Part shown: positions 31,179-37,485 of the stretch, piece after piece
Layout of the letters: each line of letters starts with the position of its first letter
Numbering within the stretch: position 1 is the stretch's first letter
Assembly: GCF_030397575.1 (NCBI RefSeq)
Contig: NZ_JAPNXS010000001.1
Span: forward strand, 248,001 to 312,000
Direction of reading: 5' to 3'
Source: Psychromonas sp. 14N.309.X.WAT.B.A12
GTDB taxonomy: Bacteria; Pseudomonadota; Gammaproteobacteria; Enterobacterales; Psychromonadaceae
DNA length: 64,000 bases
Translations under genes and position numbers: made by a program
The notes under the pieces: model-generated
Database searches by the model: none
Seen by the model: only the letters and a program-made list of their open reading frames with translations
What the model was told of the DNA's origin: nothing

Positions 31179-31949
31179 ATGTCGTTTATTGTGGTTATTC
31201 CTGCTCGTTATCAATCTACTAGATTACCTGCTAAACCCTTAGCTGATATTCTGGGTAAAACCATGATTGAGCGAGTCGCTATTCAAGCATTACAGAGTGG
31301 CGCTAAACAAGTGATCGTTGCAACGGATGATCAACGCATCGTTGATGCGTTAGTATCGGTGAATAATATTGAAGTTTGTTTAACCTCTAAGGACCACGAA
31401 TCAGGCACTGATAGGTTAGCGGAAGTGTGTGAACAATATCAATTCTCAGATGAAGAAATTATTGTGAATGTACAAGGTGATGAACCATTAATTCCACCTA
31501 GTGTCATTAAACAAGTGGCAGATAACTTATATGTTAATCAGCAAGCGAGTGTCGCTACATTAAGTGCGCCTATCACAGATCAAGATGACGCTTTTAATGT
31601 CAATGCGGTAAAAGTAGTCACAGATAAGCATAATCTTGCTTTATATTTTAGTCGAGCGACGACACCATGGGATCGCGACAATTTTACAGAGCAAAATAGA
31701 CAAGAAAAAAATGTCGATTTGAGTCATTTACAACGCCATATTGGTATTTATGCGTATCGTGTCAACTTTTTAAAACACTATGCACAATTATCGGTTTCAC
31801 CTTTAGAAAGTATTGAAAAACTTGAGCAATTGAGAGTACTTTGGCATGGTTATAAAATCCATGTTGATGTTGCAAGCCAAGTGCCGCCTGCAGGTGTTGA
31901 TACTGCAGAAGACTTACAACGAGTGATTGACGTTTTGTCACAAAGTTGA
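31179..31949 (+). CDS. kdsB: 3-deoxy-manno-octulosonate cytidylyltransferase KdsB
   Basis: A 256-residue cytoplasmic enzyme that activates Kdo as CMP-Kdo for lipopolysaccharide inner core. The nucleotide-binding start is [17 protein letters not shown]; further family signatures are [10 protein letters not shown] and HIGIYAYR. The length is close to that of E. coli KdsB (248 aa). Ribosome site GAGGAG lies in the end of ycaR. It is the last gene of the msbA operon in the strict sense; a lipoprotein gene follows 26 bp later and may be co-transcribed. Its partner KdsA is encoded at 49 kb in this window. Confidence 0.96.
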
Positions 31950-31975: not shown

Positions 31976-32911
31976 ATGAGAGTTTTTCTTATTTTCTGTT
32001 TCAGTGTGTTGCTAGTAGCCTGTGGCGATGATCGTCCTGAACGCTTACAAGCAAACATTAAAACAGCAGATTACCTTATTGAAAATTTAGGGACAAATTT
32101 AGATACTCAACGTGTTCGAAATGCGATTATTTTAAAGCAATATGCAACATTATTAGAGCAACAAAAGCCAGACTTAAAACCTTTGTTAACTGAACTGTCT
32201 AAAGATGCAACGAGAGAGGGACCTATGTTCCGTTCTTTAACAGACCGTTTAGCTACATTAAAAACACGACCTGATGTATTGGGTGATATTGAAGCACAAT
32301 TATTTGAAAGTGAAACATTGATTGAAGCCTCTGATCCCACTTTATTTAATGATGCGCTTTCTGATCCTATTAATGTCATTGCTGATATGTCTGATGGTGA
32401 GTTTGCTCGTGTTAATGCAATCAGCCAATCACAAAGTTTACAAGCTAATGGGGCTGATGATAACGGTGCTGGTAGTCAGTTGGTAGGTAATCCTGGTTAC
32501 GGTCAATGGCAAACTAACAGCAGTGGTTTCTCATTTTGGCAGTGGTATGCAGCTTATACTTTATTCTCAGCTATTTCTCCTCGTCAAATAGGTTACGACC
32601 GTTGGTCTTCTAGACGTGATTACAGTTATTACAATGATGTTGGTCGTAATCGTTACACTTCTCCTCAGCAACGTAAGTCTCAAGATGACTTAGCACAACG
32701 CACGAAGAAAAAATTTGGTAACAAAGGCGGTTTCACTAGCCCTTATGCCAAATCTAAAACAGGTGCAAGTCGCATGTCTACAGTCAGTAAACAAGCACAG
32801 AAAGCAACCAGTTTTTCAGGGAAGTCGAGTTACTCGAAGCAAAAAGCCTCTTCAAGTAGTTTTAGAAATAGCAAATCAACCACATCTCGTGGTGTTAGTC
32901 GCGGTAAATAG
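31976..32911 (+). CDS. Hypothetical lipoprotein with Ser/Lys-rich tail
   Basis: A 311-residue protein with a lipoprotein signal (FSVLLVAC, acylated Cys16) followed by GDD, so it may be kept in the inner membrane rather than sorted outwards. Residues 17-150 are predicted helical and acidic. A short hydrophobic aromatic block (FSFWQWYAAYTLFSAISP) is followed by a tail of about 100 residues rich in Ser, Lys, Arg and Tyr, ending TTSRGVSRGK. This layout (lipobox, helical part, aromatic patch, low-complexity basic tail) recalls the DUF1190/YgiB lipoproteins, though I see no firm sequence match. It starts a cluster with DUF350 and a membrane aminopropyltransferase. Confidence 0.65.
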   Translation: MRVFLIFCFSVLLVACGDDRPERLQANIKTADYLIENLGTNLDTQRVRNAIILKQYATLLEQQKPDLKPLLTELSKDATREGPMFRSLTDRLATLKTRPDVLGDIEAQLFESETLIEASDPTLFNDALSDPINVIADMSDGEFARVNAISQSQSLQANGADDNGAGSQLVGNPGYGQWQTNSSGFSFWQWYAAYTLFSAISPRQIGYDRWSSRRDYSYYNDVGRNRYTSPQQRKSQDDLAQRTKKKFGNKGGFTSPYAKSKTGASRMSTVSKQAQKATSFSGKSSYSKQKASSSSFRNSKSTTSRGVSRGK

Positions 32912-32920
32912 GATATTAAT

Positions 32921-33820
32921 ATGAACGAATTAATAACAACATTAGAAATAAATGGATCGTTGATTGGTTATTTAGCCATTGATATGGCTGTTGCTATCTT
33001 ATTATTAGGTGGTATTCGTTATGCGATGGGCGTATTGGGTAAAGTGAATACGGCTGACGAGTTAGCGCATAAAGATAATTTTGCCTACGGAATTAGTATG
33101 GCGGGTGGCGTTGCTGCCATGGGGATTGCATTAAGTGGTGCCATCACTGGTGAATTAGCAGGCTCTTATGAAATAGAGTTAATTGGTATGTTAGCTTATG
33201 GTTTAGCCGGTTTAATTCTGATTAAAGCAGGACGTTATATTCATGATAAATTTGCTTTAGCATCATTTGATAAACAAGCTTTAATCATTGATCGCAATAT
33301 TGCAGTTGCATTAGTGGATGCGGCTTCAGTGATTGCCACTGCGATCGTTGTACGTGCCGCTATCATGTGGGTAGAAGGCTTGAATGTTGATACCTTTATC
33401 GCGCTTGTTGCTGCTTGGGTCGTTTCACAAGTTATGCTGGTTGTGATCACTCGCTTCTTTGAATGGAAATATGCTAAAAATAATGGAATGCCATTCCAAA
33501 CTGCCTTAGTTAATAACCATATTGCTTTAGCTATTCGTTATAGCGGTTACTTGATTTCTACTGCAATGTCAGTGACGGCTGCGAGCTACTTTATCATTTT
33601 TGATGTGGATTCACTGTGGATGGGACTAATGCAATGGGTTGTGATTAGTGTCATTTTAATGGTGTTATTAACCATTTTAACAGGCATTGCTAAGTTCCTT
33701 GTATTATGGGGAATTAACCGTCGTGAAGAGGTTGAAGATCAGCAAAACATTGGTATTGCTACTATTGAATTAGCAACGTCTTTCTCTATTGCCTTCCTAT
33801 TAATGGCATTAATGTCTTAA
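32921..33820 (+). CDS. DUF350 membrane protein (duplicated)
   Basis: A 299-residue inner-membrane protein with about eight hydrophobic helices. The DUF350 signature recurs four times: KDNFAYGISMAGG, DRNIAVALVDAAS, VNNHIALAIRYSG and QQNIGIATIELAT, so it is a tandem duplication of the two-repeat DUF350 unit. E. coli YjfL is a shorter relative. Function unknown. It begins 9 bp after the lipoprotein stop and is followed by a strong terminator, so the main transcript is probably lipoprotein-DUF350, possibly from the kdsB side. Genome-neighbourhood work has linked DUF350, membrane aminopropyltransferases and ATP-grasp ligases. Confidence 0.85.
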   Translation: MNELITTLEINGSLIGYLAIDMAVAILLLGGIRYAMGVLGKVNTADELAHKDNFAYGISMAGGVAAMGIALSGAITGELAGSYEIELIGMLAYGLAGLILIKAGRYIHDKFALASFDKQALIIDRNIAVALVDAASVIATAIVVRAAIMWVEGLNVDTFIALVAAWVVSQVMLVVITRFFEWKYAKNNGMPFQTALVNNHIALAIRYSGYLISTAMSVTAASYFIIFDVDSLWMGLMQWVVISVILMVLLTILTGIAKFLVLWGINRREEVEDQQNIGIATIELATSFSIAFLLMALMS

Positions 33821-33840
33821 TTTTACTGTTTTATCTTACT

Positions 33841-33865
33841 AGGCCATCATTTGATGGCCTTTTTT
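33841..33865 (+). terminator. Rho-independent terminator after the DUF350 gene
   Basis: AGGCCATCA and TGATGGCCT make a perfect 9-bp stem with a 2-base loop, followed directly by five T residues. It begins 20 bp after the DUF350 stop. In-frame TTG/ATG codons of the next frame (33851, 33854) lie inside this hairpin. Confidence 0.93.
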
Positions 33866-33883
33866 ATAAGCGAATTTAATTGT

Positions 33884-35593
33884 ATGCGTCTTAAATCTCT
33901 CAATAGCAAGCAGATCAATTTACTCATTGATGATGCTTTTTTAATTTTAATAATGGCCACTTTAGCTTGCTGTGGTTTGATTTATGAATATCTACTATCC
34001 CATTATTCTGCGCGTATCCTGGGTAGCGTAGAAACGGTGATTTATGCAATCATTGGGATCATGATCGTATCGATGGGATTGGGAGCTTTTGCGGCTAAAA
34101 AGATAAAAGATGCCTTTCAAGGTTTTGTATTATTAGAGCTGATTGTTGCTTTGATCGGATGTAGTACAACCTTATTCATTGCTTCTGTGATTGGTTTTAG
34201 TCAAACCTTACCGCAATTAATTGCAGATACGTATCAGATTCCTAACGATGTGTTGTTAAAAGGAGACTTCCTGGCAACTTTATCTTGGTTAAGTAGCAAA
34301 TTACCTTATCTGTTTGCTTTTATCTTAGGCTTTTTGATTGGGATGGAAATTCCTTTAATTGCACGTATAAGAGAAACAGTTTATGGCCAACGTTTAGCAC
34401 ATAATGCTGGCACAATTTATGGTGCAGATTATATCGGGGCAGGTGTAGGCGCTGCCATTTGGGTATTATTCATGCTAAAAATTGAAATCAGTCAAGCTGC
34501 CGCACTGACTGCCTCTTTGAATTTGATTGCCGGTTTTGTATTTTTAATACGCTTTAAAGAGCATCTGAAACATAGAATGAAACTCATTATTGGACATCTT
34601 TGTTTAGGTGTTTTGATCGTGTTTGTATTTATATTTGGTAACCACTGGCAAAAACAGATGCAGAATATGTTGTATTTGGACAAAGTGGTGTATCAGACTC
34701 AAACAACATACCAAAATTTGGTCTTCACTGAGCGACTTTTAGGTGGCGGTTATGATCCTATTTATAACTTCTATATAAATGGTCGTTTACAATTTTCTAG
34801 CTTAGACGAACATATTTATCATGAGTTTTTAGTTCATCCCGTAATGCAAGCTTCTGCACGTCACCAACATATTTTGATCATTGGTGGAGGTGATGGTTTA
34901 GCCTTACGTGAAGTACAAAAATGGAATCCAGAACAAGTCACTTTGGTTGACCTTGATCCAAAACTTATTTCTCTGTTTAAATATCCAGAAAAAGTCCTAC
35001 CGCCTCATTTGAGCGATAAAATTAAACATCTTACTCAAGATAGTTTTAATCAAACTGGCGTAAAAGTTATCAACGATGATGCATTTATTGCGATTGATCG
35101 GTTACTCGCGAATAAACAAATCTTTGATACGATCATTGTTGATTTACCTGACCCTAGCCATCCAGATCTAAACAAAATGTACAGTGTTAATTTTTATTAT
35201 CGTTTGAAAAATTTATTGAATGGTGATGGTGCAATTGTGGTGCAATCGACTTCTCCTTTCCACGCTCAATCAGCATTTATTTCTATTGGAAAAACCTTGC
35301 AAGAGGCTGGGTTTAACACCGAGCAGTATCATCAAAATGTACCTTCTTTTGGCGAATGGGGGTGGAGTATTGGTACTAAACGAGGTCAAACTGCATCTCA
35401 AAGGTTATCAAGTATTGACAGTCTGGCGATTCCGACTAAATGGTTAACTTTACCTTTATTAAAAGGGGCTTTTTCTTTTAATAAAGATTTTTATTTGAAT
35501 AAAGATAAGGTAAAAGTTAATTATTTGGGCAGCAATATTCTTTATCAATACCATCAAAATGCCTGGGAAGCCGAAACAGAATTTGCTAATTAA
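33884..35593 (+). CDS. Membrane-anchored spermidine synthase-like aminopropyltransferase
   Basis: A protein of about 569 residues. The first ~220 residues contain seven or eight transmembrane helices; the rest is a spermidine synthase fold with the SAM motif LIIGGGDGLALREVQKW, VTLVDLDPKLI, and the DLPDPSHPDLNKMYSVNFY segment that holds the catalytic Asp. Soluble homologues transfer aminopropyl from decarboxylated SAM to putrescine; the membrane form may act on something else. The frame is open from 33851, but those start codons fall in a terminator hairpin; the ATG at 33884 is the better choice, although it has a poor ribosome site. Linked to DUF350 and the lipoprotein. Confidence 0.8.
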   Translation: MRLKSLNSKQINLLIDDAFLILIMATLACCGLIYEYLLSHYSARILGSVETVIYAIIGIMIVSMGLGAFAAKKIKDAFQGFVLLELIVALIGCSTTLFIASVIGFSQTLPQLIADTYQIPNDVLLKGDFLATLSWLSSKLPYLFAFILGFLIGMEIPLIARIRETVYGQRLAHNAGTIYGADYIGAGVGAAIWVLFMLKIEISQAAALTASLNLIAGFVFLIRFKEHLKHRMKLIIGHLCLGVLIVFVFIFGNHWQKQMQNMLYLDKVVYQTQTTYQNLVFTERLLGGGYDPIYNFYINGRLQFSSLDEHIYHEFLVHPVMQASARHQHILIIGGGDGLALREVQKWNPEQVTLVDLDPKLISLFKYPEKVLPPHLSDKIKHLTQDSFNQTGVKVINDDAFIAIDRLLANKQIFDTIIVDLPDPSHPDLNKMYSVNFYYRLKNLLNGDGAIVVQSTSPFHAQSAFISIGKTLQEAGFNTEQYHQNVPSFGEWGWSIGTKRGQTASQRLSSIDSLAIPTKWLTLPLLKGAFSFNKDFYLNKDKVKVNYLGSNILYQYHQNAWEAETEFAN

Positions 35594-35745: not shown

Positions 35746-37485
35746 ATGATTTCAAGTCAAGAGATGTTTAAGAAGTATTTTCCAAAACTGGTGGAAGATT
35801 CATTACAGCATAAATTATTAAGTTCTTTGTGCAAAAACTTACTACATGAAAGTGAATTTGTTCAATTTGCAGACCGTTACCCAAATTTAAAAGGTTTTGA
35901 CTTAATCGAGAAAACCCTCGATTACTTTGATTTTAGTTTTGCTACTATTGATAAACAAATCGAGCGTATACCTGTCACTGGACGAGTTGTTATTGTCGCT
36001 AACCATCCAATAGGTTCATTAGACGGTTTGGCGTTATTGCATTTGGTTAAAAAGATCAGAAGTGATGTTAAAGTTGTTGCTAATGAGTTATTGATGGAGA
36101 TTAAATCGTTGCATGACGTGTTATTACCCGTCAACAATATGTCGGGTAATACCGCAAAAAAGGATCTTTTAAATATACATGACTTTTTATCCTCTGATGG
36201 TGCATTAATCATATTTCCTGCAGGTGAAGTTTCGCGCTTTACAGCAAAAGGTATTAAAGACTCTCCTTGGCAAAAAGGCTTCTTAAAAATTGCATCACGT
36301 GCTAAAGCACCTATTTTGCCTATACACATCAAGGCTAGAAATTCTTGGACTTTTTATGCGTCTTCTTTCTTTTATAAGCCACTTGCAAGCTTATTACTGG
36401 TTAAAGAGATGTTTAAACATAACGAACAAAGCATCAATGTCAGTATTGGCAAACTAATTCCGTTTGAAAGTTACGGTAAAAGTAAATTATCGACTAAAGT
36501 TAAAGTAAATCTATTACAAAAAGAGGTTTATCGGGTTGCCAAAGGGCAGCAAAGTTACTTTAAAACAGAATCAGTGATTGCACACCCTGTCCCTCGAGTC
36601 GAATTAAAGCAAGCGATTGAACAATGCCAGCTATTAGGCAGTACTTCGGACGGGAAAAACATATATCTGTTGGAGAAACCCGAACACGGCGTCATTTTAA
36701 AGGAGTTAGGGCGATGTCGAGAAGTCACTTTTAGAGCGGTTGGTGAAGGAACAGGAGAAAAACGTGATCTTGATAAATTTGATTTTGAATACTTACATAT
36801 TATTTTATGGGATAAACAACAGTTAGAGTTAGTCGGAGCCTATCGCTTTATTAATACAGCCCAATTAATTAAAGGTAAAGCAATGGGGGAGTTATATAGT
36901 AGCCAACTTTTTGATTATAAAACGGAAATGCAGCCATATTTTGAAAAAGGCATAGAGCTTGGCCGGAGTTTCGTACAACCAAGGTATTGGGGAAAACGCA
37001 GCCTAGACTATTTATGGCAAGGAATCGGTGCGTATTTATCAATGAATAGTGATATTCGGTATTTATTTGGGGCTGTTTCTTTGACTGCCTCTTTACCAAA
37101 AAAAGCACATGCCTATTTAGTGTATTTTTATCAATTATATTTTCCATCACAAGCAGAGTTGGCAATAGCAAAAAATGCCTATTCGATTTCAGAAGAATTG
37201 GATAACGAGTTATTAGAATATTTTACCGGTGATGATTATGAAAAAGACTTTATGAAATTAAAAACTATGATGAATAATATGGGAGTAAACGTACCAACTC
37301 TATATAAGCAATATACTGAATTATGCCATGAAGGTGGCGTACAGTTCGTTGATTTTAATATCGATTCAGAATTTAATCATTGTATTGATGGTCTAGTCAT
37401 CGTTGATTTAACTTACGTAAAGGCAAAGAAAAAATCTCGCTATATTGACCTTCACCTAAATGAAAGTCGAAGCGAAAATAAGTGA
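35746..37485 (+). CDS. olsF: Bifunctional ornithine lipid synthase OlsF-like (O-acyltransferase + N-acyltransferase)
   Basis: A 579-residue fusion. Residues about 50-280 are a PlsC-like acyltransferase with NHPIGSLDG (His87, Asp93) and the IIFPAGEVSRF motif. Residues about 300-570 are an OlsB/hemolysin-type acyltransferase (GNAT fold; FRAVGEGTGEKRDLDKFDFEYLHIILWD and ELGRSFVQPRYWGKRSLDYLWQGIG). This order matches OlsF, first described in Serratia, which makes ornithine lipid from ornithine in two acylation steps. The product is an amphiphilic, phosphorus-free membrane lipid. GAGGTG lies eight bases before the ATG. A Pho-like array is just upstream. Confidence 0.85.
   Translation: MISSQEMFKKYFPKLVEDSLQHKLLSSLCKNLLHESEFVQFADRYPNLKGFDLIEKTLDYFDFSFATIDKQIERIPVTGRVVIVANHPIGSLDGLALLHLVKKIRSDVKVVANELLMEIKSLHDVLLPVNNMSGNTAKKDLLNIHDFLSSDGALIIFPAGEVSRFTAKGIKDSPWQKGFLKIASRAKAPILPIHIKARNSWTFYASSFFYKPLASLLLVKEMFKHNEQSINVSIGKLIPFESYGKSKLSTKVKVNLLQKEVYRVAKGQQSYFKTESVIAHPVPRVELKQAIEQCQLLGSTSDGKNIYLLEKPEHGVILKELGRCREVTFRAVGEGTGEKRDLDKFDFEYLHIILWDKQQLELVGAYRFINTAQLIKGKAMGELYSSQLFDYKTEMQPYFEKGIELGRSFVQPRYWGKRSLDYLWQGIGAYLSMNSDIRYLFGAVSLTASLPKKAHAYLVYFYQLYFPSQAELAIAKNAYSISEELDNELLEYFTGDDYEKDFMKLKTMMNNMGVNVPTLYKQYTELCHEGGVQFVDFNIDSEFNHCIDGLVIVDLTYVKAKKKSRYIDLHLNESRSENK

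Follow-up and report, generated by a model that had tools for sequence, protein, structure and literature searches.

Membrane-bound fusions of spermidine synthase are reportedly found together with S-adenosylmethionine (SAM, AdoMet) decarboxylase in thousands of bacterial genomes. In 2019, Li et al. are said to have found functional AdoMet decarboxylases alongside DUF350 and fusions of a major facilitator superfamily domain with spermidine synthase, with no spermidine and no complementation of speE; the acceptor was reportedly proposed to be something besides putrescine. A locus of this type lies in a 64,000-nucleotide stretch (the window) of the Psychromonas sp. 14N.309.X.WAT.B.A12 genome (contig NZ_JAPNXS010000001.1, positions 248,001 to 312,000). 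Its three genes encode a lipoprotein (LIPO), a membrane protein of the DUF350 (YjfL) family and a membrane aminopropyltransferase (APT). Like the system attributed to Li et al., which is said to include a class 1b or class 2 AdoMet decarboxylase, the locus combines a membrane spermidine-synthase fusion with DUF350, and the host genome contains an AdoMet decarboxylase. New here is a candidate substrate, the C-terminal lysine of anchored extracytoplasmic proteins. We put the chance that APT aminopropylates the C-terminal lysine of LIPO at about 55%.

Operons of the PspA-CesT/Tir 'second group' contain a spermidine synthase with seven transmembrane helices, DUF350 and a novel lipoprotein (Ravi et al. 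2024, PMC11237479). The window contains the same three components; the three genes were called uncharacterised in the initial annotation, and their layout is already published. LIPO is the lipoprotein of second-group-type clusters in Shewanella and may be of the Ctha_1186 type. In Shewanella sp. ANA-3 the triad is flanked by DUF2170, PspA and a protein that matches DUF4178 at 25.3 bits (cut-off 25). In contrast, the triad in the window lies between kdsB and the gene for OlsF, without CesT/Tir or PspA; the ANA-3 DUF2170, PspA, DUF4178 and channel proteins find no match among the open reading frames (ORFs) of the window at E values up to 1. The accessible text of Ravi et al. names neither a C-terminal lysine nor a substrate (PMC11237479). 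The system is thus known already; the proposed substrate and the sequence signature appear to be new.

A sister system is found in E. coli, where the DUF1190 proteins YgiB and YjfM adjoin ATP-grasp enzymes annotated as peptide-spermidine ligases. YgiB-YgiC and YjfIJKLMC resemble the triad in having DUF350 (YjfL), an anchored protein with a serine-rich tail and a polyamine enzyme. Unlike the triad, they have an ATP-grasp ligase in place of APT, and their anchored proteins end in Gly-Gly whereas LIPO ends in Gly-Lys. DUF1190 (PF06693) is matched in 62 of 398 phylum genomes. At the 30 best-matching places, where the ends were read by homology, the C-terminus is Gly-Gly in every case, as it is in YgiB and YjfM, and a ligase lies inside the 1.5-kb flanks in 28. 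The host genome (99.98% complete) has no match to PF06693 or to the ligase profile PF03738 (GSP_synth), which does match E. coli; the lack of a ligase noted in the initial annotation therefore extends to the whole genome. Spermidine on a terminal glycine gives Gly-NH-(CH2)4-NH-(CH2)3-NH2 or an isomer; an aminopropyl group on a terminal lysine gives Gly-NH-CH(COO-)-(CH2)4-NH-(CH2)3-NH2. From this known chemistry, ligase-made and APT-made ends would be nearly identical save for one carboxylate.

Hypusine and silaffins carry polyamine-type groups built on lysine side chains. They involve other enzymes and proteins; the lysine is not C-terminal and the setting is not the bacterial envelope. In the accessible texts of the literature searched (which excluded preprints and most subscription journals), no C-terminal lysine is named as an aminopropyl acceptor. 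The fungal N-terminal histidine methyltransferase NHMT has seven transmembrane helices followed by a spermidine-synthase-like domain, as does APT, and acts on a secreted protein terminus: according to the accessible text, it methylates the N-terminal histidine of secreted lytic polysaccharide monooxygenases (PMC10349129). It differs from APT in the group transferred and in the residue that receives it, and it has lost the acidic residue of GxG(D/E)G, which corresponds to the aspartate of GGGDG in APT; the same text describes this residue as needed for binding of decarboxylated SAM in spermidine synthases (PMC10349129).

Conservation of the triad and its aminopropyl donor

LIPO and full-length APT (more than 600 bits; next place 215) are found in the identical 42 of 148 genomes of the order. 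They are also found in the identical 17 of 398 genomes of the phylum, at an APT threshold of more than 800 bits (next place 290). In two of these 17 (G195 and G200) LIPO and APT are on separate contigs; therefore their co-occurrence is independent of linkage. A genome survey of this kind had been proposed in the initial annotation, and its expectation of co-occurrence is borne out. Gene order and strand, LIPO-DUF350-APT, are invariant in all 39 order loci, which come from 39 of the 42 LIPO genomes (G096, G111 and G139 lie outside this set). Among the best 80 of 322 named LIPO loci, APT is downstream of LIPO and DUF350 in 79; in the other (L136) the contig ends too soon. The triad is not a chance arrangement. 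LIPO is present in 10 of the 65 genera of the order sample, and many order loci come from a shared genus, so these counts are not independent events.

Of the 38 other order loci, 17 encode, close to the triad, proteins that match the ANA-3 triad neighbours, namely DUF2170 (CesT/Tir), PspA, DUF4178 and ion-channel proteins. PspA was considered as a necessary part of the system and rejected on this count; for the same reason, the LIPO-DUF350-APT triad is the smaller core.

Aminopropyl transfer requires decarboxylated SAM as donor. The host genome has no match to class 1 AdoMet decarboxylase (PF02675), which seemed to exclude such transfer; this idea was dropped once a class 2 (eukaryote-type) enzyme was found (PF01536, G000:C7:556-1341, E 1.0e-37). 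The class 2 gene lies apart from the cluster on another contig (L093 553-1362) and encodes 269 amino acids with an LSESS stretch, which we take to be the processing site. All 42 LIPO genomes encode an AdoMet decarboxylase, either class 2 (26 genomes) or class 1 (16 genomes) with no overlap; among LIPO-less genomes of the order, 21 of 106 encode one of either class. A clear soluble SpeE (PF01564, more than 170 bits) is found in 8 of the 42 LIPO genomes and not in the host genome. Since the sole other PF01564 match in the host genome is weak, APT is the only credible user of decarboxylated SAM that family searches found there. The initial annotation had proposed an aminopropyl modification without naming a source of donor or a topology; the proposal itself fits the presence of a donor enzyme in every LIPO genome.

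APT belongs to the family named polyamine aminopropyltransferase (NF002956, PRK03612), with 617.7 bits against a curated cut-off of 472. A spermidine-synthase domain (PF01564, E 7.8e-36) makes up its C-terminal half and resembles solved SpeE structures (Foldseek E 1.2e-15 at best; phmmer E 7e-24). DUF350 is also well above its cut-off (PF03994, 103.9 bits against 26). These matches agree with the identities first given to the two genes. The DLPDP motif of APT aligns with the aspartate motif of solved SpeE sequences, which has a catalytic role. From the family match and motifs, we infer that APT transfers an aminopropyl group from decarboxylated SAM.

The AlphaFold model of APT (mean pLDDT, the per-residue confidence score, 82.6; 22 alignment rows) has seven helices of transmembrane length followed by the SpeE domain. 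Across 39 homologues, the mean number of lysines plus arginines is 3.1 at the N-terminus and 2.6, 2.6 and 3.9 in loops 2, 4 and 6, compared with 1.0, 0.9 and 0.3 in loops 1, 3 and 5. By the positive-inside rule the N-terminus is predicted to be inside; after seven helices, the catalytic domain is then predicted to lie outside the cytosol. In Shewanella marina JCM 15074 (L204 8861-10572) APT is split into two overlapping ORFs, owing to either a frameshift or a sequencing error.

The C-terminal lysine in LIPO and other neighbours of membrane aminopropyltransferases

LIPO has no significant Pfam or NCBIfam family; its sole Pfam match is unrelated and below cut-off (E 0.38), and the best Foldseek match to its fold (E 0.57) gives nothing useful. 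The lipobox-like Cys16 is invariant in 22 of 22 aligned sequences. The residue after the lipobox cysteine acts as a sorting rule for the membrane destination of lipoproteins. In LIPO this residue is glycine or serine in most of 136 sequences and aspartate in none, which suggests the outer membrane as destination. In the AlphaFold model the body is helical to about residue 140, with pLDDT mostly above 70 there and below 50 over most of the remainder. The lipoprotein with a serine- and lysine-rich tail recognised in the initial annotation is confirmed, and arginine can be added. In the 115 homologues that are distinct over the last 200 residues (from the same 136), the last 65 residues contain on average 7.1 lysines, 8.0 arginines and 18.7 serines, but only 1.0 aspartates plus glutamates.

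All 115 distinct homologues end in lysine, and 114 have glycine as the penultimate residue; the last three residues are RGK in 108, GGK in six and RSK in one. The C-terminal lysine is also kept in five LIPO proteins (L120-L124) that come from outside the class and otherwise differ greatly in their tails. The terminal lysine is the only column among the last 30 residues that shows no variation. The closest named relative of LIPO among the matches listed is from Psychromonas sp. B3M02 (93% identity).

Other membrane APTs also have neighbours that end in lysine. A further 39 membrane-APT loci were read, nine from plasmids and 30 from genomes. The plasmid loci come from 13 places covering at least 79% of APT (H2, H7, H9 and H10 lie outside the nine read); the genome loci are 28 phylum APTs of about 139-290 bits and two second APTs. 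Tails were recognised by a rule: an ORF of at least 45 amino acids with a hydrophobic segment, eight or more G/S/T among the 20 residues preceding the last and three or more G among the 15 preceding it. A rule-matching protein ending in lysine is found in 32 of the 39 loci; rule matches with another last residue are found in three loci for A, two for D, one for R and one for Q. In a hand-made list, with ORF starts assigned by script, a Lys-ended neighbour (carrier) is present in 35 loci, and inspection adds L248. Most carriers are on the APT strand (30/35) and within 600 bases of APT (24/35). In an initial tail test, 25 ORFs lay on the APT strand, of which 23 ended in lysine, and eight on the opposite strand, of which five did.

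As a control, 20 of the APT genomes were sampled in 20-kb stretches whose mean GC is 0.63 (APT loci, 0.60). A Lys-ended rule match is found in none of these 20 stretches, compared with 18 of 20 of the APT loci in those genomes (Fisher p 3e-9, an optimistic value because the first examples had guided the wording of the rule). These control stretches contain 11 rule-matching ORFs, none of which ends in lysine. In the first control (1,009 kb, comprising the window and 50 loci mostly within the order) there are four rule matches, with last residues R, G, Q and K; the one ending in K is at the second-APT locus of G041 (L099, the same place as L309).

Carriers are diverse. Some are one-helix proteins of 49-100 amino acids, some are DUF4178 proteins that have a hydrophobic segment close to their end, and there are others. 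With the last 20 residues removed, the 35 carriers and three LIPO proteins fall into 18 BLAST groups. The L242 and L306 carriers group with LIPO and are probably remote relatives of it; several singletons may be related yet too short to be grouped. The penultimate residue is glycine or histidine in 32 of these 38 sequences, and in 30 of the 35 carriers the final lysine is the sole lysine in the last 31 residues. Among the small one-helix carriers, 16 of 20 have more positive charge on the N-terminal than on the C-terminal side of the helix and four are equal; their tails are therefore predicted to be outside, on the same side as is predicted for the APT domain.

Three genomes (G016, G041 and G096) have a second membrane APT (L283, L309 and L310), each with its own Lys-ended neighbour; this suggests paired enzymes and substrates. 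In Novosphingobium sp. ES2-1 the APT cluster (L244 2583-10374) also has genes annotated as an SPFH protein, an FAD-dependent oxidoreductase, speD and a rhodanese-related sulfurtransferase, which perhaps carry out further steps on the tail. A Halorussus plasmid (archaeon; L249 5965-7737) encodes a membrane spermidine-synthase-like protein (76.8 bits), in a stretch without a Lys-ended neighbour.

Possible roles of the terminal lysine

The triad may be the central part of a system that modifies envelope proteins. Decarboxylated SAM would be made in the cytosol by AdoMet decarboxylase, and this donor would cross the membrane through APT or DUF350; the latter would assist, perhaps in donor passage or assembly. 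The SpeE-like domain of the seven-helix APT, on the periplasmic side, would then aminopropylate exported LIPO on the side-chain amine of its invariant C-terminal lysine. The product would end in Gly-Lys(aminopropyl), with the side chain -(CH2)4-NH-(CH2)3-NH2, and would form a polycationic tip which may bind acidic envelope surfaces. The initial annotation had guessed that the membrane enzyme modifies the lipoprotein tail with a polyamine. The tail is now better supported as the target; the site is sharper than was suggested, a single terminal residue. Modification of the whole tail, by analogy with silaffins, is ranked below modification of the C-terminal lysine because 30 of the 35 carriers have no other lysine near the end.

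Several observations weigh against modification of the terminal lysine by APT. In LIPO, Gly -2, Arg -7, Arg -15, Arg/Gly -3 and Ser -13 are almost as constant as the last residue; since these positions are nearly invariant, the tail end is constrained as a whole and the terminal lysine is one of several constrained residues. Among the other membrane-APT loci, L249, L284 and L298 have no Lys-ended neighbour that was found, five of the 35 carriers are on the opposite strand and 11 are 1 to 5 kb from APT. In the initial tail test, five of 33 tail-rich ORFs end otherwise (D, D, A, A and R). The APT model has a predicted template modelling score (pTM) of only 0.58, and the net charge of loop 1 (+1.0) is close to that of the N-terminus (+1.1). 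A periplasmic active site would also require decarboxylated SAM to get across the membrane, and the modification is itself deduced from sequence. The second PF01564 match in the host genome, at 25.3 bits, exceeds the cut-off of 22.9. Finally, a C-terminal lysine also suits attachment to peptidoglycan.

Two alternatives rank above the other rivals: a docking or sensor tail and a link to peptidoglycan. In the first, the product of APT is an aminopropylated lipid or small molecule; the Lys-ended tail mimics a polyamine and docks to or regulates APT. SpeE enzymes do use free amines, and the DUF4178 and PspA partners of some clusters could be regulatory. However, a single terminal residue on unrelated carriers suits an acceptor at least equally well, and the system of Li et al. 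is reportedly without spermidine and without speE complementation. We regard a docking or sensor role as unlikely, though it is the best placed of the alternatives; monitoring of polyamine concentration is proposed in the accessible text of Ravi et al. (PMC11237479).

Peptidoglycan attachment is known for Braun's lipoprotein Lpp, whose C-terminal lysine is joined to peptidoglycan by L,D-transpeptidases. LIPO could be anchored in the same way, with APT acting otherwise. The invariant C-terminal lysine, the long flexible tail and the probable outer-membrane destination (glycine or serine, never aspartate, after the lipobox cysteine) would all fit. However, LIPO does not match the Pfam Lpp domain, the sister system ends in Gly-Gly, and the lysine end recurs on one-helix proteins of 49-100 amino acids beside membrane APTs and in none of the 20 control stretches. 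This explanation is rated somewhat below a docking role and is doubtful.

It is very improbable that APT is a methyltransferase which, like NHMT, uses SAM itself as donor and methylates the tail. NHMT sets a precedent for a seven-helix enzyme with a spermidine-synthase-like domain acting on secreted proteins (PMC10349129), but according to the accessible text it lacks the acidic residue of GxG(D/E)G, whereas GGGDG is invariant in 22 of 22 aligned APT sequences. Because APT retains this donor-binding aspartate, methylation is kept as a weak rival; the AdoMet decarboxylase found in all 42 LIPO genomes also argues against it. Least credible is an ordinary membrane-anchored spermidine synthase with LIPO and DUF350 as unrelated neighbours: the SpeE fold and motifs and the NCBIfam name favour it, but APT accompanies LIPO in 42 of 42 genomes and is found in 0 of 106 without it, the order is the same in 39 of 39 loci, eight of 42 genomes retain soluble SpeE as well and such fusions reportedly do not replace SpeE.

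Aminopropylation of the C-terminal lysine by APT may be one case of a wider rule. A C-terminal lysine on anchored extracytoplasmic proteins could be a general bacterial aminopropylation tag for membrane APTs that face the periplasm, and an encoded counterpart of Gly-Gly, so that two unrelated enzyme types would make polyamine-tipped envelope proteins; we consider the odds of this to be about even. If true, this would be a previously undescribed type of modification of bacterial envelope proteins. It would explain why some genomes encode AdoMet decarboxylase but no clear soluble spermidine synthase, and would unite both DUF350 systems, the ligase type with Gly-Gly and the transferase type with Gly-Lys, as makers of polyamine-tipped anchored proteins. 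A single residue would also provide a direct handle on the target of membrane spermidine-synthase fusions, and in part of the genomes the triads adjoin membrane-stress genes.

Features of the locus

The three genes are confirmed as consecutive ORFs on the same strand (Table 1). The translation start of APT is probably the ATG rather than the upstream TTG because a terminator-like hairpin covers the TTG. The hairpin is weak evidence by itself; four terminator-like sites are observed in the region and 4.1 are expected in shuffled sequence.

Table 1. Features of the LIPO-DUF350-APT locus (positions in the window)
Feature	Position	Strand	Basis and remarks
kdsB, 5' neighbour of the triad	31179-31949		Named from sequence and gene order
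LIPO, lipoprotein, 311 aa	31976..32911	+	ORF list; signal peptide with Cys16; AlphaFold
Predicted mostly disordered LIPO tail, residues 150-311	32423..32908	+	AlphaFold; end rich in Ser, Lys and Arg
Gly-Lys codons, LIPO C-terminus	32903..32908	+	Lys is the proposed modification site
DUF350 (YjfL family) membrane protein, 299 aa	32921..33820	+	PF03994 E 9.2e-30, two stretches
Terminator-like hairpin and T run, DUF350/APT gap	33841..33866	+	Hairpin 33841-33860
APT, membrane aminopropyltransferase	33885..35593	+	Preferred ATG start at 33885; longest reading 33851-35593, 580 aa, TTG start at 33851
Seven predicted transmembrane helices of APT, residues 19-274 of the 580-aa reading	33905..34672	+	AlphaFold helices
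GGGDG motif, APT residues 345-349	34883..34897	+	Invariant in 22/22 aligned
DLPDP motif, APT residues 431-435	35141..35155	+	Invariant in 22/22 aligned; aligns with Asp motif of solved SpeE sequences
OlsF, bifunctional ornithine lipid synthase, directly 3' of APT	35746-37485		NF052615, 831 bits

Ornithine lipid synthesis was considered as a general partner of the triad and rejected. Elsewhere in the genus, OlsF is near APT at four of eight loci; at the 30 remaining order loci it is never near APT. Since it accompanies APT in some genus loci only, it looks like a local neighbour.

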